The notes under the pieces: model-generated
Databases searched by the model: none
What the model was told of the DNA's origin: nothing
What the model saw: the letters and a program-made list of their open reading frames with translations, nothing else
Shown here: positions 29,199 through 47,213 of the stretch, one piece after another
Position numbering within the stretch: position 1 is the first letter of the stretch
Layout of the letters: the number at the start of each line of letters is the position of its first letter
NCBI RefSeq assembly: GCF_000244915.1
Contig: NZ_CM001442.1
Span: 6,324,001-6,388,000, forward strand
DNA: 64,000 bases
Source: Bradyrhizobium sp. WSM471
Lineage (GTDB): Bacteria > Pseudomonadota > Alphaproteobacteria > Rhizobiales > Xanthobacteraceae
Direction of reading: 5' to 3'
Program-made: the position numbers and the translations under genes

Positions 29199-31001
29199 TC
29201 ACTTCGACCGCTGCATCGCCGGCTTCTCGCTGCCCTGCCTTGCCGCCGACAGATTATGCGCCGTGTTGACCAGCGCGATATGCGTCAGCGCCTGCGGGAA
29301 ATTGCCGGACTGACGCTTGGCGCCTGAATCATATTCCTCGGCCAGCAGCCCGACGTCATTCGCGATACCGACCACGCGATCGAACAAGATCTGCGCCTTG
29401 TCGAGATCGCCCGCCAGCATATGGGCATCGGCCAGCCAAAGGCTGCAGGCGAGGAAGGCACCCTCGATCGGCTGCTTCTCCTCTGACACTTCGCGCGGAT
29501 CGTGCCGGAGCACAAAGCCGTCAGGCATCATGTGCTTTTCCATCGCCGCGATGGTGCCGCGAATGCGGGGATCCGACGCGTCGAGGAAGCCGACGGCCGG
29601 CAGCAGCAGCACGCTGGCATCGAGCAGCTTCGAGCCGTAGGACTCGACGAAGGCGTTTTCGCTCGCGTCAAAGCCCCTGTTGCAGACGTCGCGATGAATG
29701 GCGTCGCGCAAGGTACGCCAGTGCAGCAGCGGGGCCTTGAAACCGAAGGTCTCGGCGCTCTTGATGCCGCGGTCGAAGGCGACCCAGGTCATCACCTTGG
29801 AGAAGACGTAGTGCTTCGGCTGTCCGCGCCGCTCCCAGATGCCATGATCGGGCTGGTCCCAGACTTCGGCGAGATGCTTGAGCACGGCGCATTCCAGCGC
29901 CCAAGTCGTCTTGTCGTCGAGCTTGAGCTTGGCCATACGCGACTGGTGGAAGGCGTCGATCAGCTCGCCGTAAACGTCGAGCTGGAGCTGCGCATGCGCG
30001 GCATTGCCGACGCGCACCGGCTGCGCGCCCTCGTAGCCGTCGAGCCAGGTCGCCTCCCACTCCAACAGCCGCCGCTGGCCCCAGATGCCGTACATGATCT
30101 GCATGTTCGCCGGCGAGCCTGCAGCCGCACGCAACAGCCAATTGTGCCAGGCCGAGGCTTCCTCGGTGTAACCCGAGTTCATCAGCGCCAGCAGCGTGAA
30201 GGTGGCATCGCGCAGCCAGCAGAAGCGGTAGTCCCAATTCCTGGCGCCGCCGAGCTTCTCCGGCAACGAGGTGGTCGGCGCCGCGACGATGCCGCCGGTC
30301 GGACCGAACGTCAGCGCCTTGAGTGTGATCAGCGAGCGCACGATCAGGTCGCGATAGTCGCCATCGCGATTGCAGTGGCTGCACCAGCCCTGCCAGAATT
30401 TTTCCGTCTCCTGAAGCGCGAGCTCCGGGTCGATCGGCGGGGGCGGCTCGAGATGCGAGGGGCCGTAGGTCAACACGAACGGCACGGTCTCGCCGGCCTT
30501 CACCTCGAAATCGGAAACCGTGGTCAGATCCTCCCCGCGGGTCTTCGCCGGCGTCCGCAGCACGGTCATGTCCTGCCCGGCGACCGCCAGCAGGGAATGG
30601 TCGATCCGCCGCACCCACGGAATGTCGACGCCGAAGCCGAAGCGGATCACGAGCTCCATCCGCATCTTCACCGTGCCGCTGACGCCGCGGACCAGCCGCA
30701 CGATATCCGAGGCCTTGCCGCGCGGCGGCATGAAGTCGATCAGCGCAACGGTGCCACTCTTCGTCTCGAAGCGCGTTTCGAGGATGAGGGTGTCGCCGAG
30801 ATAGCGGCGCGACGTCGCGGTGACGTCCTCGCCCGGCGCGATCAGCCAGCGCCCGTTCTTGTGCGTGCCGAGGAGCGCGGCAAAGCAGGCGTCGGAATCG
30901 AAGGCCGGCCAGCACAGCCAGTCGATCGAGCCGTTGCGGCCGACCAGCGCCGCGGTCTCGCAGTCGCCGATCAGCGCATAGTCCTCGATTTTCTGAGACA
31001 A
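29199..31001 (-). CDS. Glycoside hydrolase family 15 (glucoamylase or trehalase)
   Basis: 600 residues from TTG 31001. The N-terminal beta-sandwich (YALIGDCETAALVGRNGSID, WLCWPAFDSDACFAALLG) and the (alpha/alpha)6 barrel with GGARNWDYRFCWLRDATFTL and a Glu-rich segment near LLAEEYDSGAKRQSGNFPQA are those of bacterial GH15 proteins. Members with this layout include glucoamylases and trehalases; sequence alone does not decide. It lies 42 bp after malQ on the same strand and sits opposite a trehalose-making operon, so either role fits. Confidence 0.9.
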   Translation of the reverse strand: MSQKIEDYALIGDCETAALVGRNGSIDWLCWPAFDSDACFAALLGTHKNGRWLIAPGEDVTATSRRYLGDTLILETRFETKSGTVALIDFMPPRGKASDIVRLVRGVSGTVKMRMELVIRFGFGVDIPWVRRIDHSLLAVAGQDMTVLRTPAKTRGEDLTTVSDFEVKAGETVPFVLTYGPSHLEPPPPIDPELALQETEKFWQGWCSHCNRDGDYRDLIVRSLITLKALTFGPTGGIVAAPTTSLPEKLGGARNWDYRFCWLRDATFTLLALMNSGYTEEASAWHNWLLRAAAGSPANMQIMYGIWGQRRLLEWEATWLDGYEGAQPVRVGNAAHAQLQLDVYGELIDAFHQSRMAKLKLDDKTTWALECAVLKHLAEVWDQPDHGIWERRGQPKHYVFSKVMTWVAFDRGIKSAETFGFKAPLLHWRTLRDAIHRDVCNRGFDASENAFVESYGSKLLDASVLLLPAVGFLDASDPRIRGTIAAMEKHMMPDGFVLRHDPREVSEEKQPIEGAFLACSLWLADAHMLAGDLDKAQILFDRVVGIANDVGLLAEEYDSGAKRQSGNFPQALTHIALVNTAHNLSAARQGSEKPAMQRSK

Positions 31002-31043: not shown

Positions 31044-33005
31044 TCAACGCCCGCCGGGCAACGAGCGTTCCCGCGTCGCGGCCTTCAAAGCCGCGAGATC
31101 GACCTTCGAGGCGATCTTGTCGAGCGTCACAGGCAGGCGCTGGCGCCAGTTCGGATGCTCGTCGATCGTGCCGGGAATGTTGGGCTGGTCGATCACGCCG
31201 AGCAGATCCTCCAGCGACACCGCAAGCAGCCGCGAGGGCGTGCGCGACAGGAAGGCGAGCACCGAATAGACATCATTGGCACGGATGCCGTTGGCACGCA
31301 GGATCTCGTCGAGCAGGCCGAGCGCATCCCAGCGGGCCTGATCGTTCTCGCCGGGATCGAGCCCGAGCGAGCGCTTCATCTTGAGATCGCTGAAGGAGCG
31401 CCAGCCGGCATAGGTCGACAAATCATGCGTGTTCAGCGTCACCAGCGCGTTGGGCCGGTAGTGATCGACGGGCCGGAAGTGACCGGCATCGTCGCGCTCG
31501 AACATCATGACGAGGTAGGACCAGATGCCGAAATCCTGCATGGTCTCGCGAAAGCCCTCGGGCACCGTGCCGAGGTCTTCGCCGATCACGATGCACTTAT
31601 GGGCCGCGCTCTCGCGCGCCACGGTCGCCAGCAGCGCCTCGAACGGCATCTGCACATAGGCGCCGTTGTCGGGCTTGAAGCCGCGCGGCACCAGATACAG
31701 CCGCTTCAAGCCCAGCACGTGATCGAGACGGATGGCCCCGGAATGGCGCATCGAAGCCGCGAGCATGTCGGCGAACGGCACGAAGGACTGCGCCTCCAGG
31801 CCGCCGGCATTAAAGCCGGCAAGACCCCAATCCTGGCCGATGGTGTTGAGCACGTCCGGCGGCGCGCCAACGGCGAGATGGCGGGAGATCGCCCCCTGCT
31901 CGTTCCAGGCATCGAAGCCGTTCGACTGCACGCCGACGGCAACGTCGAGATAGAGTCCGACCCGCATGCCGAGCTGACTGGCCAGCTCCTTGGCCGCATG
32001 CAACTGGCTATCGGCCGTCCATTGCACGAATTCGACGAACTCGACCTCGTGCTTGTCCGGGCCATTGCGCAGCTCGGCGCATTTCGTCTCATCCGGCTTT
32101 TGCCATTCCATCGGCCATTCCCACCACGGCGCCGCGAAACGATGGCGTAGCACCTCGAAGCAGGCAAAACGGGACAACAGTGGCGCGCGAGCCGCGCGGA
32201 AGGCGTCGAACAGGTTGCGGCGGACGCCGCTCGCGCTTTTCACGAAGCTGTCGAAGGCAGCACGCAAGGCCAACCATTTCAAGGCCGCCATGTCGGGATA
32301 GGGCACACGATCGCCGTCGCGGAGCCGCGCGGCGGTCGCAGCCGCGTCGGAGACGAGGTCTGCGGAAAATTCCGGGATCGCCTCGACGTCGATATAGAGC
32401 GGATTGAGAAACAGCCGGCTGTTCGGCGAATAGGGGCTGCAATCGGCCGGATGGTCGTCGAACAACACATGCAGGGGATTGAGCCCGACGCCGTCGGCCC
32501 CCAGCTGCTTGGCGAGCCGGACGAGACCGGCGAGGTCGGTGAAATCGCCGATGCCCCAATTGCGGTCCGACCGGACGCTGTAGAGCTGCACGGCAAGCAG
32601 CCAGCCCCGATCGAAATCGCCGCCGAAGGCCCGCTCCGGCGCCACGATCATCGGCACCTCTTCGGTCACGCCTTCGGCATCGGTCAGCGTCAGGCGGTGA
32701 TAGCCGAGCGGCAGGTCGGCCGGCCAGGCAATCACGGGCTCGCGCGTCTCGCCTTGCGCGATCAAATTGCCGTTGCCAGTCATTTTCCATTTGAGCGGCG
32801 GCGCACCGATTGTCGCCAATTCGGTGCGCGGATGTCCCAAGGCGCGCACCACCACGGGCCCGCTGACGAAGCGGTAAACCCGCTTCTCCGGCAGGGCGTC
32901 GAGGATGGATTTGAGGGCCACGGGATCGGTGACCCGCAGCTTTCCGAGGGCATCGACGAATTCAGATTGAACGCCCTTGATCCGGGCTTGAGCTAAAAGA
33001 TCCAT
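31044..33005 (-). CDS. malQ: 4-alpha-glucanotransferase (amylomaltase)
   Basis: 653 residues from ATG 33005 (MDLLAQARIKGV); an in-frame ATG at 33023 is possible. The GH77 motifs are all seen: AVQLYSVRSDRNWGIGDFTD, the nucleophile region GAIRLDHVLGLKRLYLVP, the acid/base region VIGEDLGTVPEGFRETM, and LNTHDLSTYAGW. The N-terminal extension makes it the long (E. coli) MalQ type. It rearranges maltodextrins and releases glucose. It is divergent from the glgE operon and leads the malQ-GH15 pair. Confidence 0.94.
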   Translation of the reverse strand: MDLLAQARIKGVQSEFVDALGKLRVTDPVALKSILDALPEKRVYRFVSGPVVVRALGHPRTELATIGAPPLKWKMTGNGNLIAQGETREPVIAWPADLPLGYHRLTLTDAEGVTEEVPMIVAPERAFGGDFDRGWLLAVQLYSVRSDRNWGIGDFTDLAGLVRLAKQLGADGVGLNPLHVLFDDHPADCSPYSPNSRLFLNPLYIDVEAIPEFSADLVSDAAATAARLRDGDRVPYPDMAALKWLALRAAFDSFVKSASGVRRNLFDAFRAARAPLLSRFACFEVLRHRFAAPWWEWPMEWQKPDETKCAELRNGPDKHEVEFVEFVQWTADSQLHAAKELASQLGMRVGLYLDVAVGVQSNGFDAWNEQGAISRHLAVGAPPDVLNTIGQDWGLAGFNAGGLEAQSFVPFADMLAASMRHSGAIRLDHVLGLKRLYLVPRGFKPDNGAYVQMPFEALLATVARESAAHKCIVIGEDLGTVPEGFRETMQDFGIWSYLVMMFERDDAGHFRPVDHYRPNALVTLNTHDLSTYAGWRSFSDLKMKRSLGLDPGENDQARWDALGLLDEILRANGIRANDVYSVLAFLSRTPSRLLAVSLEDLLGVIDQPNIPGTIDEHPNWRQRLPVTLDKIASKVDLAALKAATRERSLPGGR

Positions 33006-33083
33006 TCGGCACGCAGCTTGCAAGCCATTTTCTGGCCGGGGGAATTGATTTTAACGAGGTCGCTGAGGAGGTTAGTCAGGGTT

Positions 33084-33209: not shown

Positions 33210-35156
33210 GTGAACAAGACAATTCAAACTGTCGAGAGTGCCGCAGCGGGCAGCACTTTCCTCATCGAAGACGTCTATCCCCTGATCGACGGCGGGCGCT
33301 TCCCCGTGAAGCGGATCGCGCGCGAACCGGTCGAGGTCTGGGCCGACATCTACCGCGACGGCGACGCCGTGATCGGCGCAGCGCTGATCTGGCGACAGGA
33401 GCAGGACCGCGAATGGCAGAGCGAGCCGATGATCCCGCACGGCAATGACCGCTGGTCAGGCGCGTTCACACCGGTCGAGCCCGGCAAATATGTCTATGCG
33501 ATCGAAGCCTGGACCGACGAATTCGCTACCTGGTCGCACGCAGTCGCGCGCAAGCAGCGCTCCGGTGCCGACGTCACGCTCGATGCGATCGAAGGCGCCG
33601 GCCTCCTAACCAAGGCGCATGGCGCGCAGCAGGACGCCGCCGCCGTCATCGTCAGGCAATGCGAGGACTATCTTCAGACCGGCGACGTTGCCCCGCTGCT
33701 GGCGACCGAGCTCGGCGCAGCCATGGCCGAGAGCCAGTCGCGGCCTGATCTCACGCGCTCGGCGCTATTCCCGCTGCACGTCGACCGCGACAAGGCGCGC
33801 TTCGGCGCGTGGTATCAGATGATGCCGCGCAGCCAGAGCGTGGTGCCAGGACAGCACGGCACGCTCCGCGACTGCATCGCGCGCGTGCCCGACATCGCCG
33901 CAATGGGCTTCGACGTGCTCTACTTCACGCCGATTCACCCCATTGGCCGCACCCGGCGCAAGGGCCGCAATAATGCGCCGGTAGCGGGCGACGGCGATCC
34001 CGGCTCGCCCTATGCGATCGGCGCCATCGAGGGCGGGCACGATGCGCTGCATCCCGAACTCGGCACGATCGAGGATTTTCGCGCGCTGGTCGCGACCTGC
34101 CTGGAATACGGCCTCGAACTCGCGCTCGACTTCGCCGTGCAATGCTCGCCGGACCACCCGTGGCTGACGCAGCATCCGGAATGGTTCAAATGGCGCCCGG
34201 ATCGCTCGGTGCGGACGGCTGACGGGCCCTATTCCGATATCGTCATCCCCGATTTCACGTCCGTCGACCGGGCTGGACTGTGGAACGCGTTTCGCGACGC
34301 CATGCTGTTCTGGATCGACCACGGCGTCACCATCTTCGCCATCGACAATCACGACACAGCGCCGATCGCCTTCTGGGAGTGGCTGATGCGTGACATCCGC
34401 CGCCGGCATCCCGAGGTGATCCTGTTCTCCAAGACGTTCGCGCGCCCGAAGCTGATGAAGGGCCTCGCCAAGCTCGGCTTTGCACAATCGTTCAGCTATT
34501 TCCCCTGGCGCACGGCGAAGTGGGAGCTGGAGCAATATCTCGGCGAGCTGACGCGCTATCCCGAACGTGATTTCTATCGGCCGAACCTGTTCGTGAATAC
34601 GCCCGATCTCTTGCCCTATCATCTCCAGGGCGGCGAGACATGGGCGTCCAAATCGCGCGTTGCGCTGGCCGCGACGCTGTCCAGCAACTATGGCGTCTAC
34701 AGCGGGTTCGAGCTGCTGGAGCACGACGCAATTCCCGGCCGCGAGGAGTATCTCGACTCCGAGAAATACCAGATCAAGCAGCGCGACTGGAACAAGCCCG
34801 GCCATATCAAGACCTACATCGCGGATCTCAATCGCATCCGCAACGAGAATTCTGCGCTTCAGCAGACGGCGAACCTGCGCTTCCTCGGCATCGAAGACGG
34901 CGAGACGATCGCCTTCGTCAAGGAAGCGACCGATCCGGCCAACATCATCGTGATCGTGATTGCACTGTCGCGCGACGTGCGCGAATTCTGGTTGCCGCTC
35001 GGCGACGTCACGGTTGACGCCGGTGGGCAGCGACACCATGTGTCGGCACTCGAAAACCTCCTCACCGGCGAACAGGCCCGCATCGAATGGGGCGGGATCA
35101 GGTTGCGTATCGATCCCGAGCGCGATCCGGCGCTGCTGTTCCGCTGCCTGGCGTAA
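33210..35156 (+). CDS. glgE: GlgE-like maltosyltransferase homologue with an altered active site
   Basis: 648 residues from GTG 33210 ([12 protein letters not shown]); the frame is open from 33018 but only this part is conserved. The GH13_3 framework is clear: [56 protein letters not shown]. GlgE transfers maltose from maltose 1-phosphate to glucan. The nucleophile Asp is retained (D379 in [10 protein letters not shown]), as is the third acidic residue (D466 in [11 protein letters not shown]). The usual acid/base Glu of the (L/F)xEAFTRP motif is Lys here (K408 in FSKTFARP), and the Arg two places before the nucleophile is Ala. Activity is therefore doubtful. First gene of the plus-strand glucan operon. 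Confidence 0.85.
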
Positions 35157-35167
35157 AGGCGCACGCC

Positions 35168-38100
35168 ATGAACGTATTGTCTTCCGTCGACACCAAGAAA
35201 GCCGAGGCTGCCGAGATCGTGGATGAACTCTGGTACAAGGACGCCATCATCTATCAGCTTCACGTCAAGGCGTTTGCGGATAGCAATCATGACGGCATCG
35301 GCGATTTCGCAGGGCTGACCGAGAAGCTGCCTTATCTCCAGGAGCTCGGCGTCACCGCGCTGTGGCTGCTGCCGTTCTATCCTTCGCCCGGCCGCGACGA
35401 CGGCTACGACATCGCCGACTACGGTGCGGTCAATCCCGATTTCGGGACGATGAAGGATTTCAAGCGCTTCATCCAGGAAGCGCAGAAGCGCGGGCTGCGC
35501 GTCATCACCGAGCTTGTCGTCAATCACACCTCGGACCAGCACAATTGGTTCAAGCGCGCGCGCCGCAGCCCTCCGGGCTCGAGCGCCCGCAACTGGTATG
35601 TCTGGAGTGACACCGACCAGAAATACCAGGGCACCCGCATCATCTTCACCGACACCGAGAAGTCTAACTGGACCTGGGATCACGAGGCCGGCGCGTTTTA
35701 CTGGCACCGCTTCTTCTCCCACCAGCCAGATCTCAATTTCGACAATCCGCGCGTCGTCAGCGCCCTGATCCAGGTGATGAAGCGCTGGCTGGACGCCGGT
35801 GTCGACGGCTTCCGTCTGGACGCCATTCCCTATCTCTGCGAGCGCGAAGGCACCTCGAACGAGAACCTGCCGGAGACGCATGCCATCATCAAGCGGCTCC
35901 GCCATGAGATGGATTCCTACTCCAAGGGCAAGCTGCTGCTGGCGGAAGCCAACCAATGGCCGGAGGACGTGCAGGAATATTTCGGCCGCGGCGACGAGTG
36001 CCACATGGCCTATCACTTCCCGCTGATGCCGCGCATCTACATGGCGATCGCCCAGGAGGACCGCTTTCCCATCACCGACATCCTGCGCCAGACGCCGGAC
36101 ATTCCCGCAAGCTGCCAATGGGCACTGTTCCTGCGCAATCATGACGAGCTGACGCTGGAGATGGTGACCGACGTCGAGCGCGACTATCTGTGGACCACCT
36201 ACGCCAACGATCCGCGCGCCCGCATCAATGTCGGCATCCGCCGGCGCCTCGCGCCACTGATGGACAACGACCGGCGCAAGATCGAGCTGATGAACTCGCT
36301 GCTGCTGTCCTTCCCCGGCACGCCGATCATCTATTACGGCGACGAGATCGGGATGGGCGACAACATCTATCTCGGCGACCGCAACGGCGTGCGTACGCCG
36401 ATGCAGTGGAGCCCGGACCGAAACGGCGGCTTCTCGCGCTGCGACCCGGCCCGCCTCTATGCGCCGCTGATCATGGATCCCGTCTACGGCTACGAATCGG
36501 TGAACGTGGAGGCGCAGTCGCGCAGCCTGTCCTCGCTGCTCAGCGCAACCAAGCGCCTGATCTCGGTGCGCAAATCCACGATTGCCTTCGGCCGCGGCAC
36601 CATGACCTTCATCCGCCCGGCCAACCGCGCCGTGCTCGCGTATGTCCGGCAGTACCGCGACGAGGTGATCCTCTGCGTCGCCAATCTGTCGCGCGCGGCC
36701 CAGGCGACCGAGCTCGATCTGTCGCCCTGGAAGGACCGCATCCCGCAGGAGATGCTCGGCCGCACGCGTTTTCCGGCGATCGGCGAACTGCCCTACATGG
36801 TCACGCTGGGGCCCTATGGCTTCTACTGGTTCCAGCTCACCGAGCGCGACAAGTCCGAGCCGGTGATGCCGCGCGCTGTCCCGGAATTCGAGACGCTGGT
36901 GGTGCCGGTGAACTCGACCTGGGTGTCGCTGGCGCGCGAGCGTGGCGTGTTCGAGCATGAGGTGCTGCCGGGATTCCTGTCGCGCACGCGCTGGTATCCG
37001 GAGCACAATCCCAAGCACATCAAGCCGACGCTGACCTCGGCGGTGCCGTTCTGCGACATCGGCGACAACAGGCCCTGGATCGCGTTCTTCGAGGCGGCGC
37101 AGGGCGACGTCACCACGCGCTACGTGCTGCCGATGCAGATCGAATGGGTGCGCTTCGACCGCGAACGCTTCAATCCCAGGGCGCTCGCCGCCGTGCGCCA
37201 GGGTGCCCGCGAAGGCACGCTGCTGGACGTCGCAACCGAGCAGATCTTCATTGGCCTGTTCCTGCGCAATCTGTCGCAGAACCTGGTGGTGGAAGAAAAC
37301 AATCTGCGGCTGGAGTTCAAGGCGACCAGCCGGTTTGCCGAGTACACCATCAAGGAGCCCGAACGCATCCGCGCGATCGAGCAGTCGAACAGCACGGCGC
37401 TGGTCGACAACCAGTATGTCGCCAAGATCTATCGCCAGCTCGAAGCCGGCATCAATCCGGAGATCGAGATCGGCTCGTACCTCACCGAAATCGCCCGCTT
37501 TGCCAACACGCCGGCACTGCTCGGCAGCGTCGAGCTGGTCGAAGACGACCGTCGCAGCGCAGTCGGCGTGCTGCACGCCTATGTCGAGAACCAGGGCGAC
37601 GGCTGGGGCGTCACCGCGGGCTATCTCGACCGCTATATCGACGAGCAGCGGGTGCTGCCCCCGGGCGAGATGCCCCGCGAGACCCAGGAGCAAGCGCCCT
37701 ATCTGCACTTCATTACGCAGATCGGCCGGCGGCTTGCCGAGCTGCATGTGGCTCTGGCCGCCGCAAAGCCAAACGATCTCGTGCCGGAGCCGATTGGCTC
37801 CGCACAAATCAAGCGCTGGTCATCCGAGCTCAAGGCACGGGCCGAGCGGGTCTTCGAGCGGCTGGCCAGCAGCAGCGACGGCCTGCGAGAGGCAGATCGG
37901 CCGCTGATCAATCAGCTCGCCGCGCAGCGGGCGTCCCTGTCCGGCCGGCTCAACGCGCTATTATCTTCCGAGATCGGCGGGTTGAACATCCGTCATCATG
38001 GCGACTTCCGCCTCGGGCAAACTCTGATCGTGAAGGACGATATCTTCATCATCGACTTCGACGGAGATCCGCGTTCGCCGCTGGCCGACAAGCGGCGCAA

Positions 38101-38461
38101 GCTGCCTGCGGCGCGCGACGTTGCCGGCCTGATCCGCTCGATTGATCTTTCGGTTAACGCGGCGCTCCACCGCGCGCTCACGGGTGCTTCCGACGAACAG
38201 GGCCGGCTTACGGCTGCGCTCGACGAATGGCGCGAGCGCACCACCGCGACGTTCCTCACCGCCTACCGCGAAGCCATGACCGATCGGCGGCTGTGGCCGG
38301 AAGATCCGCAATCCGCGGCAGGCCTGTTAAGGTTTTTCCTGCTTGATCAAGCGTTCGAGGAAGTAGAGTACGAGCTGTCCCACCGGCCTGAGGGGCTCCA
38401 TGCGCCGCTGTCCGGACTGCTTCGCATTCTGTCCAGTATCGAGAGCGAAGCCCATGCCTAA
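35168..38461 (+). CDS. treS: Trehalose synthase-maltokinase fusion (TreS-Pep2)
   Basis: 1097 residues from ATG 35168. Residues 1 to about 560 are TreS (GH13_16), which interconverts trehalose and maltose. The nucleophile block [11 protein letters not shown] (D218), the acid/base [12 protein letters not shown] and [13 protein letters not shown] are intact. The C-terminal part, from about 600, is a maltokinase that makes maltose 1-phosphate with ATP; its kinase motif is seen in [16 protein letters not shown] followed by FIIDFDGDP near residue 945. The fused form is common in bacteria with the GlgE route. Its end overlaps the glgB start by 8 bp. Confidence 0.95.
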
Positions 38462-40592
38462 ACTCCCTGCCGAGGCCTATGCGATCATCGAGGGTCGCCA
38501 CTCCGATCCCTTCCACTATCTCGGGCTGCACCCCGAGGGCGACAAGAGCGTGGTGCGCGCGTTTCTTCCCGACGCCTCCAATGTCGAAGCGGTGGGCGAG
38601 CACGGCGAGGTGGCGAAGCTCGATCGCGTCCATGATGCCGGCCTGTTCATCGGCGCTCTCCCGAACGGCGCGAAGCACTACCAGCTCCGCGCCAAGTTCG
38701 GCGACAACGTCATCGAATTCGAGGACACCTATCGCCTTCCGCCGATCCTGACCGATTTCGACCTCTATCTGCTCGGCGAAGGCACCCACCAGCGCCTTTA
38801 CGACAAGCTCGGCGCGCATCCGATGCGGCTCGAAGGCATCGATGGCATCGGCTTCGTGGTGCTGGCGCCCAACGCCCGGCGTGTCTCCGTGGTCGGCGAC
38901 TTCAACTTCTGGGACGGACGGCGCCATCCGATGCGGGTGCGGGGCGCGGGCTATTGGGAATTGTTCATCCCGCACGCCAAGGCCGGCGACCACTACAAGT
39001 TCGAAATTATTGGACCGCATGGCCATCTGCTTCCGCTGAAGTCCGATCCGATGGCGTTTGCGAGCGAGGTGCGGCCGAAGACCGCTTCCATCGTGTTCGA
39101 CGAAGCGCATCTGCCACGGCCGCGACCGGCGCCCGATGGCATCAACGCGTTGTCCGCGCCGATGTCGATCTACGAGGTCCATCTCGGCTCGTGGCGGCGC
39201 AAGAACGGCAATGAATGGCTGACCTATCGCGAACTGGCCGAGCAGCTGCCGGCCTACGCCCGCGACATGGGCTTCACCCATCTCGAATTCCTCCCCGTCA
39301 GCGAGCATCCTTTCGACGGCTCATGGGGCTATCAGCCGACCGGCCTGTACGCGCCAACCAGCCGCTTCGGGACGCCGGAGGATTTTGCCGCGCTGGTCGA
39401 TGCCTGCCACCGCGAGGGCGTCGGCGTGCTGCTCGACTGGGTGCCCGGCCACTTCCCGGACGATCCGCACGGGCTCGGTAGTTTCGACGGTACAGCGCTA
39501 TACGAGCACGCCAATCCGCTCCAGGGCCGCCACCTCGATTGGGGCACGCTGATCTACAATTACGGCCGCACCGAAGTGACGAACTTCCTGGTCTCGAACG
39601 CGCTGTTCTGGCTCGAGCGCTACGCGATCGACGGACTGCGCGTCGATGCCGTCGCGTCCATGCTCTACCTCGACTACAGCCGTCCGCCCGGCGCGTGGAT
39701 TCCGAACCAGCATGGCGGCCGGGAGAACATCGAGGCGATCGCGTTCCTGCGCCGCTTCAACACCGAGCTGTTCGCGCGTTTCCCGCAGGCGACCACGGCC
39801 GCCGAAGAGTCCACCGCCTGGCCGCAGGTCTCGCGCCCGGTCGAGTTCGGCGGGCTCGGCTTCGGCTACAAGTGGAACATGGGCTGGATGCACGACACGC
39901 TGAACTACATCAGCAAGGACCCGATCCACCGCAAGCATCATCACGGCGACATCCTGTTCGGCCTGCACTACGCCTTCTCGGAGAACTTCGTCCTGCCGCT
40001 GTCGCATGACGAGGTCGTGCACGGCAAGCGCTCGATCCTGGGGCGCATGCCCGGCGACGAATGGCAGCGCTTTGCGAATTTGCGCGCCTATTACAGCTTC
40101 ATGTTCGGCCATCCCGGCAAGAAGCTGCTGTTCATGGGCGCCGAGATCGCGCAAAGCCGCGAGTGGAATCACGACCAGTCGCTCGACTGGCACCTGCTCG
40201 AGTACAAGCCCCATTCAGGCATCCAGGCGCTGATCCGCGATCTCAACCGGCTCTATCGCGCGGTACCCGCCCTGCACCAGATGGACTGCGAGCAGGCCGG
40301 CTTCGAATGGCTGATCACCGACGACGCCAACCGCAACGTGTTCGCCTGGCTGCGCAAGGGATTTGACGAGCACGCCCGGTGCATGGTGATCGTCAACTTC
40401 TCACCCAACGTCTATCGCAACTACCGCGTCCGCGCGTCCCTCGGTGGCAAGTGGAAGGAAGTGTTCAACTCGGACTCCGCCCATTACGGCGGCAGCAATG
40501 TCGGCAACATCGGCGAAGTCCACGCCGTCAATGGTGAACTCCGCCTCACCATTCCGCCGCTCGCCGCGATCTTCCTCGTTCCGGAAAGCTGA
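38454..40592 (+). CDS. glgB: 1,4-alpha-glucan branching enzyme
   Basis: 712 residues from ATG 38454, after which the GlgB N-domains start ([20 protein letters not shown]). The CBM48 domain ([20 protein letters not shown]) and the GH13_9 catalytic motifs are complete: [28 protein letters not shown] (nucleophile), [15 protein letters not shown] (acid/base) and [14 protein letters not shown]. It adds alpha-1,6 branches to the glucan. It follows treS without a gap and is 3 bp before glgX. Confidence 0.96.
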
Positions 40593-40595
40593 ACG

Positions 40596-42674
40596 ATGCG
40601 CCTGACTGCTGGATCGCCCGCACGCCTCGGCGCAAGCTGGGACGGACGCGGCACCAATTTCGCGCTGTTCTCAGCCAACGCGCAGAAGGTCGAGCTGTGC
40701 CTGTTCGACATGCAGGGCCGCCGCGAACTCGAGCGCGTCGAGCTTCCGGAGCGCACCGAGGATGTCTGGCACGGGTATCTCAACGACGTCTCGCCCGGCC
40801 AGCTCTACGGCTACCGCGTGCATGGCCCCTACGAGCCGGAGCACGGCCACCGCTTCAACGCCAACAAGCTGCTGCTCGATCCCTATGCCAAGCGGCTTTC
40901 CGGGCGGCTGGTCTGGAGTGACGCGCATTTCGCCTACCGCACCGGAAGCCCGCGCGAGGATTTGTCGTTCGATCGGCGCGACAATGCGCGCGGCATGCCC
41001 AAGGCCGTCGTCGTCGACGAGACTTTCAACTGGGGCCGCCGCGAGATCCGGCCCAACATTCCCTGGGAAGACACCATCATCTACGAGGCCCACGTCAAGG
41101 GACTGACACAGAAGCGCGATGACGTGCCGCCTAATTTGCGCGGCACCTATGGCGGCCTGTCCTCGCCGGCGATGATCGAGCACCTGAAGAAACTCGGCGT
41201 CACGACGGTGGAGCTTCTGCCGGTGCACAGTTTCGTCGATGACCGCATCCTGGTGGAGAAGAAGCTCGCCAATTACTGGGGCTACAACACCTTGTCCTTC
41301 TTCGCGCCCGAGCAGCGCTATTCCCAGGACAACGCCCTCGATTCCTTTCGCACCACGGTCGCACGCCTGCACGATGCCGGCATTGAGGTGATGCTCGACG
41401 TCGTCTACAACCACACCGCCGAGGGCAATCACCTCGGCCCGACGCTGTGCTACCGCGGCATCGACAACGCCTCCTATTACTGGCTGAACCGCGAGAACCC
41501 GCGCTATTACGACGACTTCACCGGCTGCGGCTCGTCGGTGAACCTCACCCACCCGCGCGTGCTGCAGATGGTGATGGATTCACTGCGCTATTGGGTCGAG
41601 GTCTGCCACGTCGACGGCTTCCGTTTCGACCTCGCCACCACGCTGGCGCGCGGGCCGAACGGTTATGATCGCGGCAGCTCGTTCCTGACCGCGATCCGCC
41701 AGGACCCGGTGCTGGCGAGCGTCAAGCTCGTCGCCGAACCCTGGGACCTCGGCCTCGGCGGCTATCAGGTCGGCGCATTTCCCTCGCAATGGTCGGAGTG
41801 GAACGACCGTTACCGCAGTGCCATGCGCCGCTACTGGAGCGGCGAAGGCAGCCTGATCGGCGACATCTCCAGCCGCATGACGGCGTCCTCCGACCTGTTC
41901 AACCACGACGGACGGCGGCCGCGCGCCAGCGTCAACCACATCACCGTGCATGATGGTTTCACCCTCGCCGATCTCTTCAGCTACAACGAGAAGCACAACG
42001 AGGCCAATGGCGAGGACAATCGCGACGGCTCCAACGACAACCACAGCAACAATTGCGGTGTCGAGGGCCCGACCGACGATCCGCAAATCGTCAGCTTGCG
42101 CCGGCAGCTTCGCAAGAACGTGCTGGCCTGCCTCATGCTGGCGCAGGGCATTCCGCTGATCCTCGCCGGCGACGAGGTCGGGAATTCGCAATCAGGCAAC
42201 AACAACGCCTATTGCCAGGACAATGAGGTTGGCTGGGTCGGCTGGGACAATCTCGGCAAGGACGGCGACGACATGGTCGATTTCGTCGCCGAACTCGCCG
42301 AGATCCGCCGCCGGTTCTCGCAGCTTCGCAGCCATCGCTGGCTCGACGGCCGCCCCAAGGACGGCATCTCCTACGGCGCGCTGTGGCTGACGCCGGCCGG
42401 CGACGAAATGACGGAAAGCGACTGGAAATTCCCGGAAGGGCGGTTCCTGTCCTATGTGATGGGGCCGATGGAACCGGGCAGCGCCGCGATCTTTATCGTA
42501 CTCAACGCAGCCCCCGAAGAGATCGCATTCAAATTGCCAAAATTGACCGAATACAAGAGCTGGCAGCAAATCCTCAACACGACGGACGCCAAGCTGAACA
42601 CGGTCGACTTCCAACCCGGAAGCGACAGCAAGGCGCCGCCGCGCTCCGTGCTCGCTTTCGCGGGGGCGCTATGA
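40596..42674 (+). CDS. glgX: Glycogen debranching enzyme GlgX (isoamylase type)
   Basis: 692 residues. CBM48 N-domain (LGASWDGRGTNFALFSANAQ) and GH13_11 barrel with LDVVYNHTAEGNHLGPTL, VDGFRFDLATTLARG (nucleophile), KLVAEPWDLGLGGYQVG (acid/base) and NHITVHDGFTLADLFSYN. It removes alpha-1,6 branches, giving linear chains for TreY. Starts 3 bp after glgB, and its stop overlaps treZ as ATGA. Confidence 0.95.
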   Translation: MRLTAGSPARLGASWDGRGTNFALFSANAQKVELCLFDMQGRRELERVELPERTEDVWHGYLNDVSPGQLYGYRVHGPYEPEHGHRFNANKLLLDPYAKRLSGRLVWSDAHFAYRTGSPREDLSFDRRDNARGMPKAVVVDETFNWGRREIRPNIPWEDTIIYEAHVKGLTQKRDDVPPNLRGTYGGLSSPAMIEHLKKLGVTTVELLPVHSFVDDRILVEKKLANYWGYNTLSFFAPEQRYSQDNALDSFRTTVARLHDAGIEVMLDVVYNHTAEGNHLGPTLCYRGIDNASYYWLNRENPRYYDDFTGCGSSVNLTHPRVLQMVMDSLRYWVEVCHVDGFRFDLATTLARGPNGYDRGSSFLTAIRQDPVLASVKLVAEPWDLGLGGYQVGAFPSQWSEWNDRYRSAMRRYWSGEGSLIGDISSRMTASSDLFNHDGRRPRASVNHITVHDGFTLADLFSYNEKHNEANGEDNRDGSNDNHSNNCGVEGPTDDPQIVSLRRQLRKNVLACLMLAQGIPLILAGDEVGNSQSGNNNAYCQDNEVGWVGWDNLGKDGDDMVDFVAELAEIRRRFSQLRSHRWLDGRPKDGISYGALWLTPAGDEMTESDWKFPEGRFLSYVMGPMEPGSAAIFIVLNAAPEEIAFKLPKLTEYKSWQQILNTTDAKLNTVDFQPGSDSKAPPRSVLAFAGAL

Positions 42675-44425
42675 GGCCATCCTTCGGGGCGAGGCCGACA
42701 AAGGACGGCGTGTCGTTCCGGCTGTGGGCGCCTGCCGCGCGCCGTGTCGATCTCCTGCTCGACAGACGACACGCGATGCAGCGCCGGCAGGATGGCTGGT
42801 ATGTCGCCGAGATTGCCAATCTGCCCGTCGGCAGCACCTACAAATTCAGGATCGACGACGAGATGGACGTGCCCGATCCGGCGTCTGCATTCCAACCCGA
42901 CGACGTATTCGGCCCGAGCGAGGTGATCGATCATGACGCCTTCGCCTGGCGCGCATCCGATTGGCGCGGCCGCCCCTGGGAAGAGACGGTGCTGATCGAG
43001 ACGCATGTCGGCACCTTCACCGCGGAAGGCACCTATCGTGCCATGATCGACAAGCTCGATCATCTCGTCGCGACCGGCATCACCGCGGTCGAGCTGATGC
43101 CGCTGGCCGACTTCGCCGGTCGTCGCGGCTGGGGTTATGACGGCGTGCTGTGGTACGCGCCCGACAGCGCCTATGGCCGTCCCGATGATTTGAAGACGCT
43201 GATCGACGAAGCACATCTGCGCGGGCTGATGGTGTTCCTCGACGTCGTCTACAATCATTTCGGCCCCGAGGGAAATTACCTCGGCCGCTACGCGCCGGCC
43301 TTTTTCACCGACGCGCACACGCCATGGGGCAGTGCGATCGATTATCGCGTGCCGCAGGTTCGCGCTTTTGCCGTCGAGAACGCGCTGTCGTGGCTCAGCG
43401 ACTATTGCTTCGACGGCCTGAGGCTCGATGCCGCCAATCACATCATGGCAATCCCCGGCGAGCAATCGATGCTGCAAGACCTCAGCGTCGCCGCGGGCGA
43501 GCTTACCAAGGCGACGGGGCGGCATATCCATCTCGTGCTGGAGAACGGCGACAACCGCGCGAGCCTGCTTGACGCCGCGCAGGAGCCCCCGAACGGAAAA
43601 TATCGCGGCCAGTGGAACGACGACTACCACCACGTCTGGCACGTGATGCTGACGGGCGAGCTCGCCGGCTATTACGCGGACTATCAAACGCCCCGGCTCG
43701 ATCTCGCACGCGCGCTCGCCTCCGGCTTCGTCTATCAGGGCGAGATCTCGGAATTCTGGGGCAAGAAGCCGCGCGGCGAGAAAAGCGATGAGCTGCCGCC
43801 GGCAACCTTCGTCAACTTCCTGCAAAACCACGACCAGATCGGCAACCGGCCGCTCGGCGACCGGCTCGAAAGCCTGGCATCGCCCCAGCAGGTCGAAGCC
43901 GCGCTCGCGGTGACCCTGCTCGCGCCGATGGTGCCGATGCTGTTCCAGGGCGAGGAGTGGGGCTCCACCGCGCCCTTCCCGTTCTTCTGCGACTTCCAGG
44001 GCGGACTGGCTGATGCCGTCCGCAAGGGGCGCAGGCAGGAATACGCCTGGGCCTATGAGACGTACGGCGACGAGGTGCCCGACCCGCTCGATCCGGCAAC
44101 GCCGCAATCGGCCGTGCTCGACTGGACCGGCCACACGCCGGAGCAGGACGCGCGTCTCGCGCTGGTGCGGGAGCTGCTCGCACTCCGCCACAAGGAGATC
44201 GCGCCACGACTGAAAGGTGCGCGCTTCGGTGATTCCGCCGTGGCCGATAGCGGCCTGCTCACCGCACATTGGCACATGGGAGATGGCGCGACGTTGCGCC
44301 TCGTGGCCAATCTCTCCGACAAGGACATTGCGTATTCCGACGGCGGTGGGGGGACCCTGGTCTGGGGCGGCGCGACCGGCGACCGGCTTGCGCCCTGGTC
44401 GGTGGTCTGGCGCCTCGGAGGTTGA
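42671..44425 (+). CDS. treZ: Maltooligosyltrehalose trehalohydrolase
   Basis: 584 residues from ATG 42671, overlapping glgX by 4 bp. The N-domain (GVSFRLWAPAARRVDLLLD) and GH13_10 motifs (FLDVVYNHFGPEGNYLGRY, DYCFDGLRLDAANHI, HLVLENGDNRASLL, FLQNHDQIGNRPLGDRL) are present. It cleaves maltooligosyltrehalose, made by TreY, to free trehalose and a shortened glucan. TreZ precedes treY here, as in many rhizobia. Confidence 0.95.
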   Translation: MRPSFGARPTKDGVSFRLWAPAARRVDLLLDRRHAMQRRQDGWYVAEIANLPVGSTYKFRIDDEMDVPDPASAFQPDDVFGPSEVIDHDAFAWRASDWRGRPWEETVLIETHVGTFTAEGTYRAMIDKLDHLVATGITAVELMPLADFAGRRGWGYDGVLWYAPDSAYGRPDDLKTLIDEAHLRGLMVFLDVVYNHFGPEGNYLGRYAPAFFTDAHTPWGSAIDYRVPQVRAFAVENALSWLSDYCFDGLRLDAANHIMAIPGEQSMLQDLSVAAGELTKATGRHIHLVLENGDNRASLLDAAQEPPNGKYRGQWNDDYHHVWHVMLTGELAGYYADYQTPRLDLARALASGFVYQGEISEFWGKKPRGEKSDELPPATFVNFLQNHDQIGNRPLGDRLESLASPQQVEAALAVTLLAPMVPMLFQGEEWGSTAPFPFFCDFQGGLADAVRKGRRQEYAWAYETYGDEVPDPLDPATPQSAVLDWTGHTPEQDARLALVRELLALRHKEIAPRLKGARFGDSAVADSGLLTAHWHMGDGATLRLVANLSDKDIAYSDGGGGTLVWGGATGDRLAPWSVVWRLGG

Positions 44426-44426
44426 C

Positions 44427-47213
44427 ATGCCTCCAGCCATTCCTCTCGCAACCTACCGGCTTCAGCTCACCGCGGATTTCGACTTCGACAAGGCCGCCGC
44501 CGTGGTGCCCTATCTGAAGGCGCTGGGAATCACGCATCTCTACACCTCGCCGGTGATGAAGGCCCGCAAGGGCTCGACCCACGGCTATGACACCGTCGAT
44601 CACAGCCAGTTCAATCCGGAGCTCGGCGGCGAGGCCGGCTTTGCGCGGCTGAGCGAGGCGCTGACGCGACACGACCTCGGCCTCATCATCGACTTCGTAC
44701 CGAACCATGTCGGCGTCCACTTTGCCGACAATCCCTGGTGGCTGGACGTGCTGGAATGGGGCCAGGCCTCGCCGCACGCCGTCTCCTTCGATATCGACTG
44801 GGATCAACTGGCTTTCCGCGCCCGTGGCGGCGTGCTGCTGCCGATCCTCGGAGCATCCTATGGCGAAGCGCTCGAGAGCGGCGATATCGAGCTGCGCTAC
44901 GATCCCGACGAAGGTAGTTTTTCCGCCTGGTATTTCGAGCACCGCTTGCCGATCGCGCCGGAGCGCTATGGCGAGATGCTGCGGATGATCGTGAAGGAAG
45001 CCGACGCCGCCGAGACCGAGGCCGGCAAGCGCCTGCTGTCGCTCGCGGCGCGCTACACGGGACTGCGCCGTCCCAACCGCAAGGAAGCGCCCGGCTTCAA
45101 GGCGGAGCTCAAGGAGATCGCAGGCGGCGCCGATATCATCGCGCGCGGCCTTGGCGCCTATCGCGCCGCCAAGGACCGCGCCGCGCAGACGCTGGCGCTG
45201 CATCATCTGCTGGAGCGCCAGCACTACAAGCTCGGGCACTGGCGGCTTGCCTCGAGCGACATCAACTATCGCCGCTTCTTCGACGTCAACGGGCTCGCCG
45301 GCATGCGCGTCGAGGATCCCGGCACGTTCGCCGCCACGCACCGGCTGGTGAAGCAACTCATTGCCGACGGCAGACTGCAAGGCATCCGGCTCGACCATAT
45401 CGACGGCCTGCGCGATCCCGCGCAATATTGCCAGCGGCTGCGCCGGCTCGTGCGCGACGCGCAGGGCACCACCAGGCCGTTCTATACGGTGATCGAGAAG
45501 ATCCTGTGCGAGCACGAGCGCCTGCCGCATTTCGCCGGCGTCCAGGGCACCACCGGCTATGAGTGGATGAATGCCATCACCCACGTTCTGGTCGACCCCA
45601 AGGGGCTGGAGGCGCTGGACGAGACCTGGCGGCAGATCAGCAACCGGCCGCCGCGGCTCGCGCCTTACGTCAAGGACGCCAAAAGGCGCGTGCTGGAGAC
45701 ACTACTGACCAGCGAATTCACGGTTCTGACGCGCCTGCTTGCGCGCATCGCCAACGGGCACTACTCGACCCGCGACTTTTCCGCCGACAGCCTGCGGCAG
45801 GCGCTCGAGCTCTACGTGCTTCATTTCCCGGTGTACCGCACCTATTTGACGACAGGCGCGCCGACCGCGAACGATCGCAAGCTGATCGACGACACCATCG
45901 AGGCCGCTCGCCGGGAATGGTTCGCCGCGGACGAAGGCATTTTCGACTTCCTGCGCGACGCCCTCACCATGGACCTGCTCAAGCCCGGCCGTCCCCCGCA
46001 CAGCGCCCCGCGCGTGCGCCGCTTTGCGCTGAAGGTGCAGCAATTCACCGGGCCGATGATGGCGAAGTCGCTGGAGGACACCGCTTTCTATCAATTCCAC
46101 CGGCTGCTCGCCCTGAACGAAGTCGGCGGCGATCCCGCGAGCAAGGGCCTCACCATTCCCGCTTTCCATGAGACCATGCAGGCCCGCGCCAGGGAATGGC
46201 CGCAAGGGATGACGGCGACCGCCACGCACGACACCAAACGTGGCGAGGACGCCCGCGCGCGGATCGCGGCCTTGAGTGAAATTCCCGGCGAATGGACCAG
46301 CGCCGTGGCGCGCTGGAAAGTCCTGAACGCGCCGCACCTCGCGCTCGACGGCAATCTGCGCGCTCCCTCGGCAACGTTCGAATACATGCTCTACCAGACG
46401 CTGCTCGGCGCCTGGTCCCTCCAGGAGCCGGCCGATGCCGGTTTCGTCGCGCGCATCCAGGCCTACGCGCTCAAGGCCGCGCGCGAGGGCAAGGAGGAGA
46501 CCAGCTGGCTCAACCCGCACGAGGTCTACGAGAGCGGCGTCCATAGCTTCATCGCGAAGATCCTCGATCCCGCGCTGTCAGGCGAATTCCTGGAGGCGCT
46601 GAAAACCCTGGCTCGCCGGGTCGCGCTGCTCGGCGCGCTGAACGCGCTGAGCCAGCTCACGCTCAAGGCAACACTGCCGGGCGTGCCCGACTTCTACCAG
46701 GGCACCGAATTCTGGGACCTCTCGCTGGTCGATCCCGACAACCGCCGCCCGGTGGATTTTTCCGCACGACACGCGGCGCTGGGCACGCTGGAGAATCCGG
46801 ATTGGAATCATCTGATCAAGAGCTGGCCGGACGGCCAGCTCAAGCTGGCCTGGACGCGGCACCTGCTCAAGCTGCGCAACGAGCTGCCGGACGTCTTCGC
46901 GCGAGGTGACTACCAGCCGCTTCAGGTGCGGGGCGCACATGCCGACCATGTCGTGGCGTTTGCCCGCCGCCACGGCCGCACTGCTGCGATCGTCGCGGTC
47001 GGGCGCCAGTTCGCACCTTTCACGCAGGCAGGACGCGAATGGCCAGCGTTCGATGGGTTCGACGCCACCATCGACGTCACGGGATACGACTTGCCGGGTT
47101 TCGCCGGCAACGATCTGCCGCTCGCGCAGGCGCTTCGCGGTTTTCCCGCTTCTGTCATCCCGGCGCGCCCAGCGGGTGCCGCGAAGCCGGGGCGACAGCG
47201 CACCCGCGCTTGA
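44427..47213 (+). CDS. treY: Maltooligosyltrehalose synthase
   Basis: 928 residues from ATG 44427, directly after the treZ stop (TGAC-ATG). The family start PLATYRLQLTADFDFDKAAA and motifs YTSPVMKARKGSTHGYDTVD, IIDFVPNHVGVHFADNPWW, LQGIRLDHIDGLRDP (nucleophile) and MTATATHDTKRGEDARARI are intact. It isomerises the reducing end of glucan chains to a trehalose unit. Last gene of the operon, ending 3 bp before a convergent gene. Confidence 0.95.
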   Translation: MPPAIPLATYRLQLTADFDFDKAAAVVPYLKALGITHLYTSPVMKARKGSTHGYDTVDHSQFNPELGGEAGFARLSEALTRHDLGLIIDFVPNHVGVHFADNPWWLDVLEWGQASPHAVSFDIDWDQLAFRARGGVLLPILGASYGEALESGDIELRYDPDEGSFSAWYFEHRLPIAPERYGEMLRMIVKEADAAETEAGKRLLSLAARYTGLRRPNRKEAPGFKAELKEIAGGADIIARGLGAYRAAKDRAAQTLALHHLLERQHYKLGHWRLASSDINYRRFFDVNGLAGMRVEDPGTFAATHRLVKQLIADGRLQGIRLDHIDGLRDPAQYCQRLRRLVRDAQGTTRPFYTVIEKILCEHERLPHFAGVQGTTGYEWMNAITHVLVDPKGLEALDETWRQISNRPPRLAPYVKDAKRRVLETLLTSEFTVLTRLLARIANGHYSTRDFSADSLRQALELYVLHFPVYRTYLTTGAPTANDRKLIDDTIEAARREWFAADEGIFDFLRDALTMDLLKPGRPPHSAPRVRRFALKVQQFTGPMMAKSLEDTAFYQFHRLLALNEVGGDPASKGLTIPAFHETMQARAREWPQGMTATATHDTKRGEDARARIAALSEIPGEWTSAVARWKVLNAPHLALDGNLRAPSATFEYMLYQTLLGAWSLQEPADAGFVARIQAYALKAAREGKEETSWLNPHEVYESGVHSFIAKILDPALSGEFLEALKTLARRVALLGALNALSQLTLKATLPGVPDFYQGTEFWDLSLVDPDNRRPVDFSARHAALGTLENPDWNHLIKSWPDGQLKLAWTRHLLKLRNELPDVFARGDYQPLQVRGAHADHVVAFARRHGRTAAIVAVGRQFAPFTQAGREWPAFDGFDATIDVTGYDLPGFAGNDLPLAQALRGFPASVIPARPAGAAKPGRQRTRA

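Follow-up and report, generated by a model that had tools for sequence, protein, structure and literature searches.

The window analysed here is a 64,000-nucleotide stretch of the Bradyrhizobium sp. WSM471 genome (contig NZ_CM001442.1, positions 6,324,001 to 6,388,000 of the forward strand). At positions 33210 to 35156 it carries a gene for a homologue of GlgE, the enzyme of maltose 1-phosphate-dependent transfer, in which Lys occupies the position of the catalytic acid/base Glu; such genes are called Lys type below. The reading frame is uninterrupted, with a GTG start codon at 33210 and a stop codon that ends at 35156, and it encodes 648 amino acids, so the gene is long and intact, as an earlier sequence-only reading of the window had stated. 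GlgE positions are numbered either in this protein or in the Streptomyces coelicolor GlgE of solved structure, the sequence of which is that of the V279S construct (the wild type has Val at 279). The features of the gene are as follows.

33210..35156, + strand: glgE-like gene, Lys type (648 amino acids, GTG start; PF11896 match, 8.3e-53; GlgE fold)
34224..34232, + strand: G339-P340-Y341, remnant of the phosphate-binding loop (canonical NPPKKY; ligand list in PMC4526890)
34338..34340, + strand: A377 replacing the conserved Arg (R392), from the alignment to S. coelicolor GlgE
34344..34346, + strand: D379, nucleophile position, kept (Asp in 94/97 Lys-type genes; Ala in 2, Val in 1)
34347..34364, + strand: NHDTAP replacing NPHTKP, from the alignment
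34431..34433, + strand: K408 replacing the acid/base Glu (E423), from the alignment; 29 residues after D379
34506..34511, + strand: W433-R434, acceptor-site residues (W448, R449), kept (Trp in 97/97, Arg in 92/97)
34605..34607, + strand: D466 (D480), kept (97/97 Lys-type genes)
34764..34769, + strand: K519-Y520 (K534, Y535), -2 sugar subsite, kept (97/97 each)

The alignment to the solved S. coelicolor GlgE placed A377 on R392, D379 on D394, K408 on E423 and D466 on D480. No other Glu of the Lys-type protein was aligned at position 423, which bears out the replacement of the acid/base Glu by Lys, and the other details given in the sequence-only reading (D379, D466, the spacing of 29 residues, A377 and NHDTAP) were each found. 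Its statement that the rest of the protein is normal did not hold, however, because the donor site carries further changes. The phosphate of the donor is held by N352, K355, Y357 and N395 (PMC4526890). The loop NPPKKY is reduced to GP, a gap of three residues and Y, in which N352 is replaced by Gly, K355 is deleted with two neighbours and Y357 is kept; of the four ligands, N352 and K355 are thus lost and Y357 and N395 remain. The Asp of NHDTAP falls on H397, and K399 is replaced by Ala. The ligands of the -2 sugar include K264, N268, D359, K534, Y535 and S279 of the V279S construct (PMC4526890), and the acceptor pair is W448/R449 (PMC5076824). The 648-amino-acid protein keeps these -2 residues, Q324, D480 and the acceptor pair. 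Across canonical relatives and S. coelicolor GlgE, 200 positions do not vary; of these, the Lys type keeps 161 (in at least 95% of its members), 13 are loosened and 26 have acquired a new consensus. Eighteen of these 26 are concentrated in four short segments (345–356, 392–399, 420–426 and 443–447), which correspond to the phosphate loop, both catalytic motifs and the residues leading up to Trp448.

GlgE domain N/S was recognised in the protein (PF11896, 8.3e-53), and a structure model built from 66 more diverse sequences, which served for the fold only, supports the overall GlgE fold with 37 to 41% identity in structural alignments. A first model, based on 48 close relatives, was poor (predicted local distance difference test score of 56.8) and was set aside.

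We compared the protein with its homologues to evaluate how unusual these changes are. N352, K355, Y357, R392, D394, N395, H397 and E423 were all present in 240/240 canonical homologues from two protein searches; these are the best 120 of about 8000 scored for each of two query centres, one on Streptomyces and one on Bosea with other alphaproteobacteria, so that rarer variants may occur elsewhere. In the 120 proteins nearest to the 648-amino-acid protein, position 423 was Lys in 118 and Glu in two, the latter at 72% identity. Lys was also found at the acid/base position in 71/80 named loci, and canonical motifs were found in all 22 GlgE genes, the best-matching ones, read from other genera of the family.

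Within the genus, 168 of 195 Bradyrhizobium genomes gave a GlgE match with an E value of 0.001 or better (155 strong and 13 weak only), and 27 gave none. The motifs were read in 150 of the 155 strong matches, which comprised 97 Lys-type genes, 27 canonical ('KKY') genes, 25 'QRW' genes and one gene with Gly at position 423 (G191). The five others were assessed separately: in four, the gene lies at a different locus and has canonical catalytic motifs and a canonical loop (in G110, it is in two frames); the fifth is G083, described below. Position 392 was Ala in 95/97 Lys-type genes (Thr and Ser in one each) and Arg in 52/52 Glu-type genes. The Lys type occurs in named species including B. japonicum, B. 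diazoefficiens, B. yuanmingense, B. liaoningense and B. canariense, and its presence in 97 genomes rules out a sequencing error or a recent pseudogene as the cause of Lys408. Conservation of Lys across Bradyrhizobium had been proposed as a check on changed function; Lys is constant in one clade but not genus-wide, since Glu occupies the position in 52/150 genes.

The gene that follows glgE encodes a TreS-Mak fusion. Its TreS half, at 35168..36850 on the + strand, has intact catalytic motifs, so interconversion of trehalose and maltose is probably still possible, and its Mak half is altered.

35168..38461, + strand: TreS-Mak fusion, 1097 amino acids (TIGR02456 and TIGR02457 over cut-off)
38009..38011, + strand: Mak R948 replacing His307 of the putative maltose pocket (Arg in 77/77 Lys-type, His in 24/24 canonical)
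38054..38068, + strand: Mak DFDGD replacing DFEGE (D322 kept; E324 and E326 changed)
38348..38359, + strand: Mak Q1061...E1064 replacing Lys413...Tyr416, from the alignment

Nine Mak positions were read in Mycobacterium vanbaalenii numbering (S136, N137, H307, E324, E326, R334, K413, Y416 and Y420). This was done in the 77 of 97 Lys-type genomes with a full TreS-Mak; the fusion is in two frames in two others, and the rest lie on stretches that are too short. The nine positions read SNHEERKYY in 24/24 canonical members of the genus and in 20/20 genomes of other genera. In the Lys-type genomes, H307 was Arg and E324 was Asp in 77/77, Tyr416 was found in 0/77 and K413 was kept in 3/77. The Mak of the window retains the putative catalytic base D305, the Mg ligands Q310 and D322, and the P-loop residues S136/N137, and it has Arg, Gln and Glu at the maltose-pocket positions H307, K413 and Y416. 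H307 sits in the putative maltose pocket of Mak, and the mycobacterial enzyme is left with practically no activity when Y416, Y420 or K413 is mutated (PMC4306142). The claim of an otherwise full trehalose-glucan pathway is therefore not supported. Columns 413 and 416 were highly variable among Lys-clade sequences (1.65 and 1.42 bits; the mean was 0.50). Together with the loss of the GlgE donor site, the loss of these Mak residues makes the pathway look cut at two consecutive steps, and this fits a pseudoenzyme better than a change of chemistry alone.

The other genes around glgE, which provide its context, are listed below.

29199..31001, - strand: gene before malQ in the operon order, presumably GH15
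31044..33023, - strand: malQ, 4-alpha-glucanotransferase, divergent neighbour
38454..40592, + strand: glgB, branching enzyme
40596..47213, + strand: glgX, treZ and treY

The product of the first of these matches archaeal trehalase models (5.7e-110, below the cut-off) and may be a trehalase rather than a glucoamylase. The order GH15-MalQ-GlgE-TreSMak-GlgB was found in 79/79 Lys-type stretches of sufficient length, with TreS-Mak in two frames in two of them. The operon place had been called normal; this applies to the gene order, but not to the content of the operon, as the Mak domain of the next gene is altered. In one Lys-type genome assembled as one contig (G078, locus L079), glgE and treS-mak are each split into two frames, by a frameshift or a sequencing error. 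A sigma-EcfG promoter for glgE was considered and dropped: the window contained six matches to a consensus for this promoter type, where 2.8 were expected, and none of the six was in a position to drive glgE.

In a FastTree phylogeny of GlgE with 184 tips, the Lys type was monophyletic (106/106 tips, support 0.999, stem 0.19), had no non-Lys member and was nested in canonical Bradyrhizobium GlgE, with the canonical G156 as sister; the 106 tips include a few duplicates (the protein of the studied genome appears twice, under the labels Q and G000, and some genomes are represented by more than one locus). QRW and G191 formed a separate clade. The Lys genomes were also monophyletic in the trees of TreS and Mak (78/78 tips, counting the sequence of the studied genome twice; supports 0.80 and 0.91, respectively), and the TreS tree gave the same sister, G156. 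This monophyly and the common slot indicate that the change most likely arose once, in place; in sequence terms, a Lys-type GlgE most likely replaced the canonical one in the same operon slot on a single occasion. Lateral replacement of GlgE was ruled out by the GlgE and TreS trees (TreS support only 0.80) and by the slot.

We estimated the ratio of nonsynonymous to synonymous substitution rates (dN/dS) by a pooled Nei-Gojobori method. The dN/dS of Lys-type GlgE was 0.156 and was lowest, 0.12, in the catalytic barrel; catalytic residues have been lost while the gene stays under purifying selection. A full-length glgE frame was present in 96/97 Lys-type genomes, the exception being G078, and three Lys-type genes that lack the nucleophile Asp are also full length. 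In a comparison of groups that differ in depth, the dN/dS of TreS was 0.046 in the Lys clade and 0.081 in canonical relatives, and that of Mak was 0.232 in the Lys clade, 0.183 in canonical relatives and 0.145 in the QRW clade. The sugar contacts of GlgE were retained more than the average column of the barrel (p 0.03). They were not retained more than other columns of ancient invariance (p 0.24).

We searched for copies or routes that might cover for the Lys type. A second, canonical glgE, for which the sequence-only reading had proposed a search, was not found in the studied genome (one contig, 7.78 Mb). With the canonical GlgE of the sister as query and an E value of 1e-20, a single GlgE copy was found in each of the 97 Lys-type genomes (one in two frames), which rules out a canonical second copy at this threshold. 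Mak was single in each of 30 Lys-type genomes searched. No GlgM-type synthase over cut-off was found in 24 genomes (15 of Lys type), and a supply of maltose 1-phosphate by GlgM was set aside; the model gave weak matches in 14/14 controls and exceeded the cut-off in one, so a divergent GlgM is possible. GlgA was over cut-off in 190/195 genomes of the genus, and glycogen need not rely on GlgE.

Two further Bradyrhizobium lineages are altered at both maltose 1-phosphate steps, so that there are three in total, each via different residues. The GlgE of the 25 QRW genomes lies in the same operon slot and has lost N352, mostly to His, with K355Q and Y357W, and it keeps Arg392, Asp394 and Glu423 in 25/25. 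QRW loci such as L063 thus keep the triad and have three of the four phosphate ligands replaced, and this GlgE is possibly a transferase or hydrolase with a phosphate-free donor. The QRW Mak keeps K413, Y416 and Y420 in 25/25 and has lost the P-loop residues S136 in 25/25 and N137 in 24/25; the corresponding M. tuberculosis P-loop mutants lose much or all activity (PMC4306142). Both the QRW and the Lys clade show changes of phosphate ligands and Mak, but the QRW Mak is altered at the P-loop and not at the maltose pocket. G083 (L303, 5943-11328) is a lone third case within the usual operon. Its GlgE keeps Glu423 and Arg392 and carries K355E, Y357C, W448S and R449C, its Mak carries S136R, E326N and Y416A, and from these residues the pair looks like free decay. 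Overall, the GlgE donor site is changed in 124 (97 + 25 + 1 + 1) of the 155 genomes with a strong match, and Mak is also changed in every such genome in which it was read (77 + 25 + 1 + 1). The three coupled events are a pattern and not a statistical test. As a separate observation, in five genomes (L089 and L299-L302) a GlgE with canonical motifs occupies a different locus, where it is accompanied by a Mak-like open reading frame and GlgX; in the four of L299-L302, this frame has 537–574 amino acids and canonical Mak residues. This GlgE was probably acquired separately.

Taken together, the sequence data make it probable that the Lys-type GlgE has been retained as a pseudoenzyme and that its pathway is cut at maltose 1-phosphate; the protein may still bind glucan. 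From the computed residue changes, their conservation, the single origin, the coupling to Mak, the lack of a second GlgE and the selection, we infer that the protein would be inactive and would bind glucan. In the common ancestor of one Bradyrhizobium clade, a canonical GlgE would have lost maltose 1-phosphate transfer when Lys took the place of its acid/base, the conserved Arg disappeared and the phosphate loop became shorter. The Mak domain of TreS-Mak would have lost its maltose site on that branch too and would no longer make the donor, with TreS probably still interconverting trehalose and maltose. Glycogen would be made by the GlgA route, which is present in nearly all of these genomes. 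The GlgE protein would have been kept, most likely by binding maltose or glucan chains through its retained sugar subsites without catalysis. One guess is that it anchors or regulates TreS-Mak, GlgB or MalQ on glycogen; the analysis identified no partner. The choice between pseudoenzyme, scaffold and changed chemistry offered by the sequence-only reading was a fair list for a Lys that is conserved in its clade with no second glgE beside it, but the coupled loss in Mak favours the pseudoenzyme.

Several observations weigh against this interpretation or limit it. The kept nucleophile, D466 and sugar contacts also suit an enzyme with other chemistry, and the kept contacts are in themselves no proof that a ligand is bound. 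The dN/dS of Mak is only mildly raised in the Lys clade, which does not look like free decay, and the ATP-site residues N137, K149, D305, Q310 and D322 are unchanged in 77/77, so that another kinase role is possible. The QRW genomes did not form a clean clade in the TreS tree (33 tips, 7 of them canonical). No NCBIfam family was named for the 648-amino-acid protein at an E value of 1e-10. Finally, there is an active GH13 amylase in which two catalytic positions are occupied by Lys and His (PMC5347038).

This active amylase also speaks for an enzyme of changed chemistry, which would use a phosphate-free donor (for example, in malto-oligosaccharide transfer or hydrolysis) with Lys408 as acid/base or with none. 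The Lys type retains D379 (in 94/97), D466 and the larger part of the -2 subsite, its Lys408 does not vary within the clade, and in GH130 the loss of phosphate ligands accompanies the change from phosphorylase to hydrolase (PMC4599007). We nevertheless regard such an enzyme as unlikely, because the conserved Arg is gone in 97/97 and the nucleophile is dispensable in a few genes, being lost in 3/97 that are still full length. In addition, Lys is a poor acid/base at neutral pH. A rewired pair is likewise doubtful, and slightly more so: Mak, with its intact ATP (adenosine triphosphate) site and a new invariant Arg in the pocket, might phosphorylate another substrate or sense ATP, and the Lys-type GlgE, with its maltose subsite intact and a Lys that never varies at its catalytic centre, might have a Lys-dependent new reaction or ligand.

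Slow decay, in which a pathway that has lost its use leaves behind a remnant gene that persists by chance or through its operon place, seems improbable. It would suit the 40/195 genomes of the genus with no GlgE or only a weak match, the variable Mak pocket columns 413 and 416, and G083, in which the donor, acceptor and Mak sites are altered together. The purifying selection (dN/dS of about 0.16), strongest in the barrel, argues against decay, as do the full-length frame in 96/97, Trp448 in 97/97, unlike in G083, and the new residues fixed at several positions. An ordinary GlgE that tolerates the substitution is very improbable; its fold, gene order and most sugar-contact residues are normal, but at least five donor-site residues are changed together, and the kinase that makes the donor is altered in the same genomes.

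About 14% of sequenced bacterial genomes are said to carry the genes of the GlgE pathway, a figure that concerns gene presence (PMC8084333). The donor-site and Mak changes in 124/155 genomes indicate that gene presence probably overstates GlgE-pathway function in Bradyrhizobium, and the presence of GlgE and Mak genes need not mean a working pathway in a large group of this genus. In M. tuberculosis, a block of GlgE kills through accumulation of maltose 1-phosphate (PMC5076824, PMC4663749). The change of both proteins in each lineage is as expected if they can be lost only together, and through this coupling it becomes possible to test, in non-pathogenic laboratory strains, in which order they were lost and why the proteins are kept. 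Deletion or disruption aside, a treS mutant of B. diazoefficiens is reported to contain more trehalose and less maltose (PMC8092242, citing earlier work); a cut pathway agrees with this report but does not need it, and the present findings may bear on the phenotype. A rewired pair, if true, would mean that soybean symbionts have a branch of trehalose-glucan metabolism that has so far gone unrecognised. Our literature search found no paper that joins 'GlgE' and 'pseudoenzyme'; subscription papers were mostly outside its reach, so absence from print is not claimed.

Compared with S. coelicolor isoform 1 and mycobacterial GlgE (GH13_3), the Lys type shares domain N/S, the barrel, the C-terminal domain, the -2 subsite, the acceptor Trp-Arg pair and the nucleophile position, but it has lost the acid/base, the conserved Arg and two of the four phosphate ligands. 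The GH13 amylase BmaN1, which has an aberrant triad, resembles the Lys type in having Lys at a catalytic position; however, its Lys replaces the nucleophile, its acid/base Glu is kept and its activity has been shown (PMC5347038). The nearest comparison is the canonical sister GlgE (P0118, identical to the gene of G156), which is 70 to 74% identical to the Lys type and 73% identical to the 648-amino-acid protein. Unlike the Lys clade, G156 has canonical residues at all catalytic and phosphate positions and at the tested Mak positions, and most of the 26 stretches with canonical Bradyrhizobium GlgE have the gene order of the Lys clade. In plants, non-catalytic starch proteins such as ISA2 are dead relatives of glucan enzymes that are kept for binding or assembly; they differ from the Lys-type GlgE in family and organism, and for the latter a comparable role in binding or assembly is putative.
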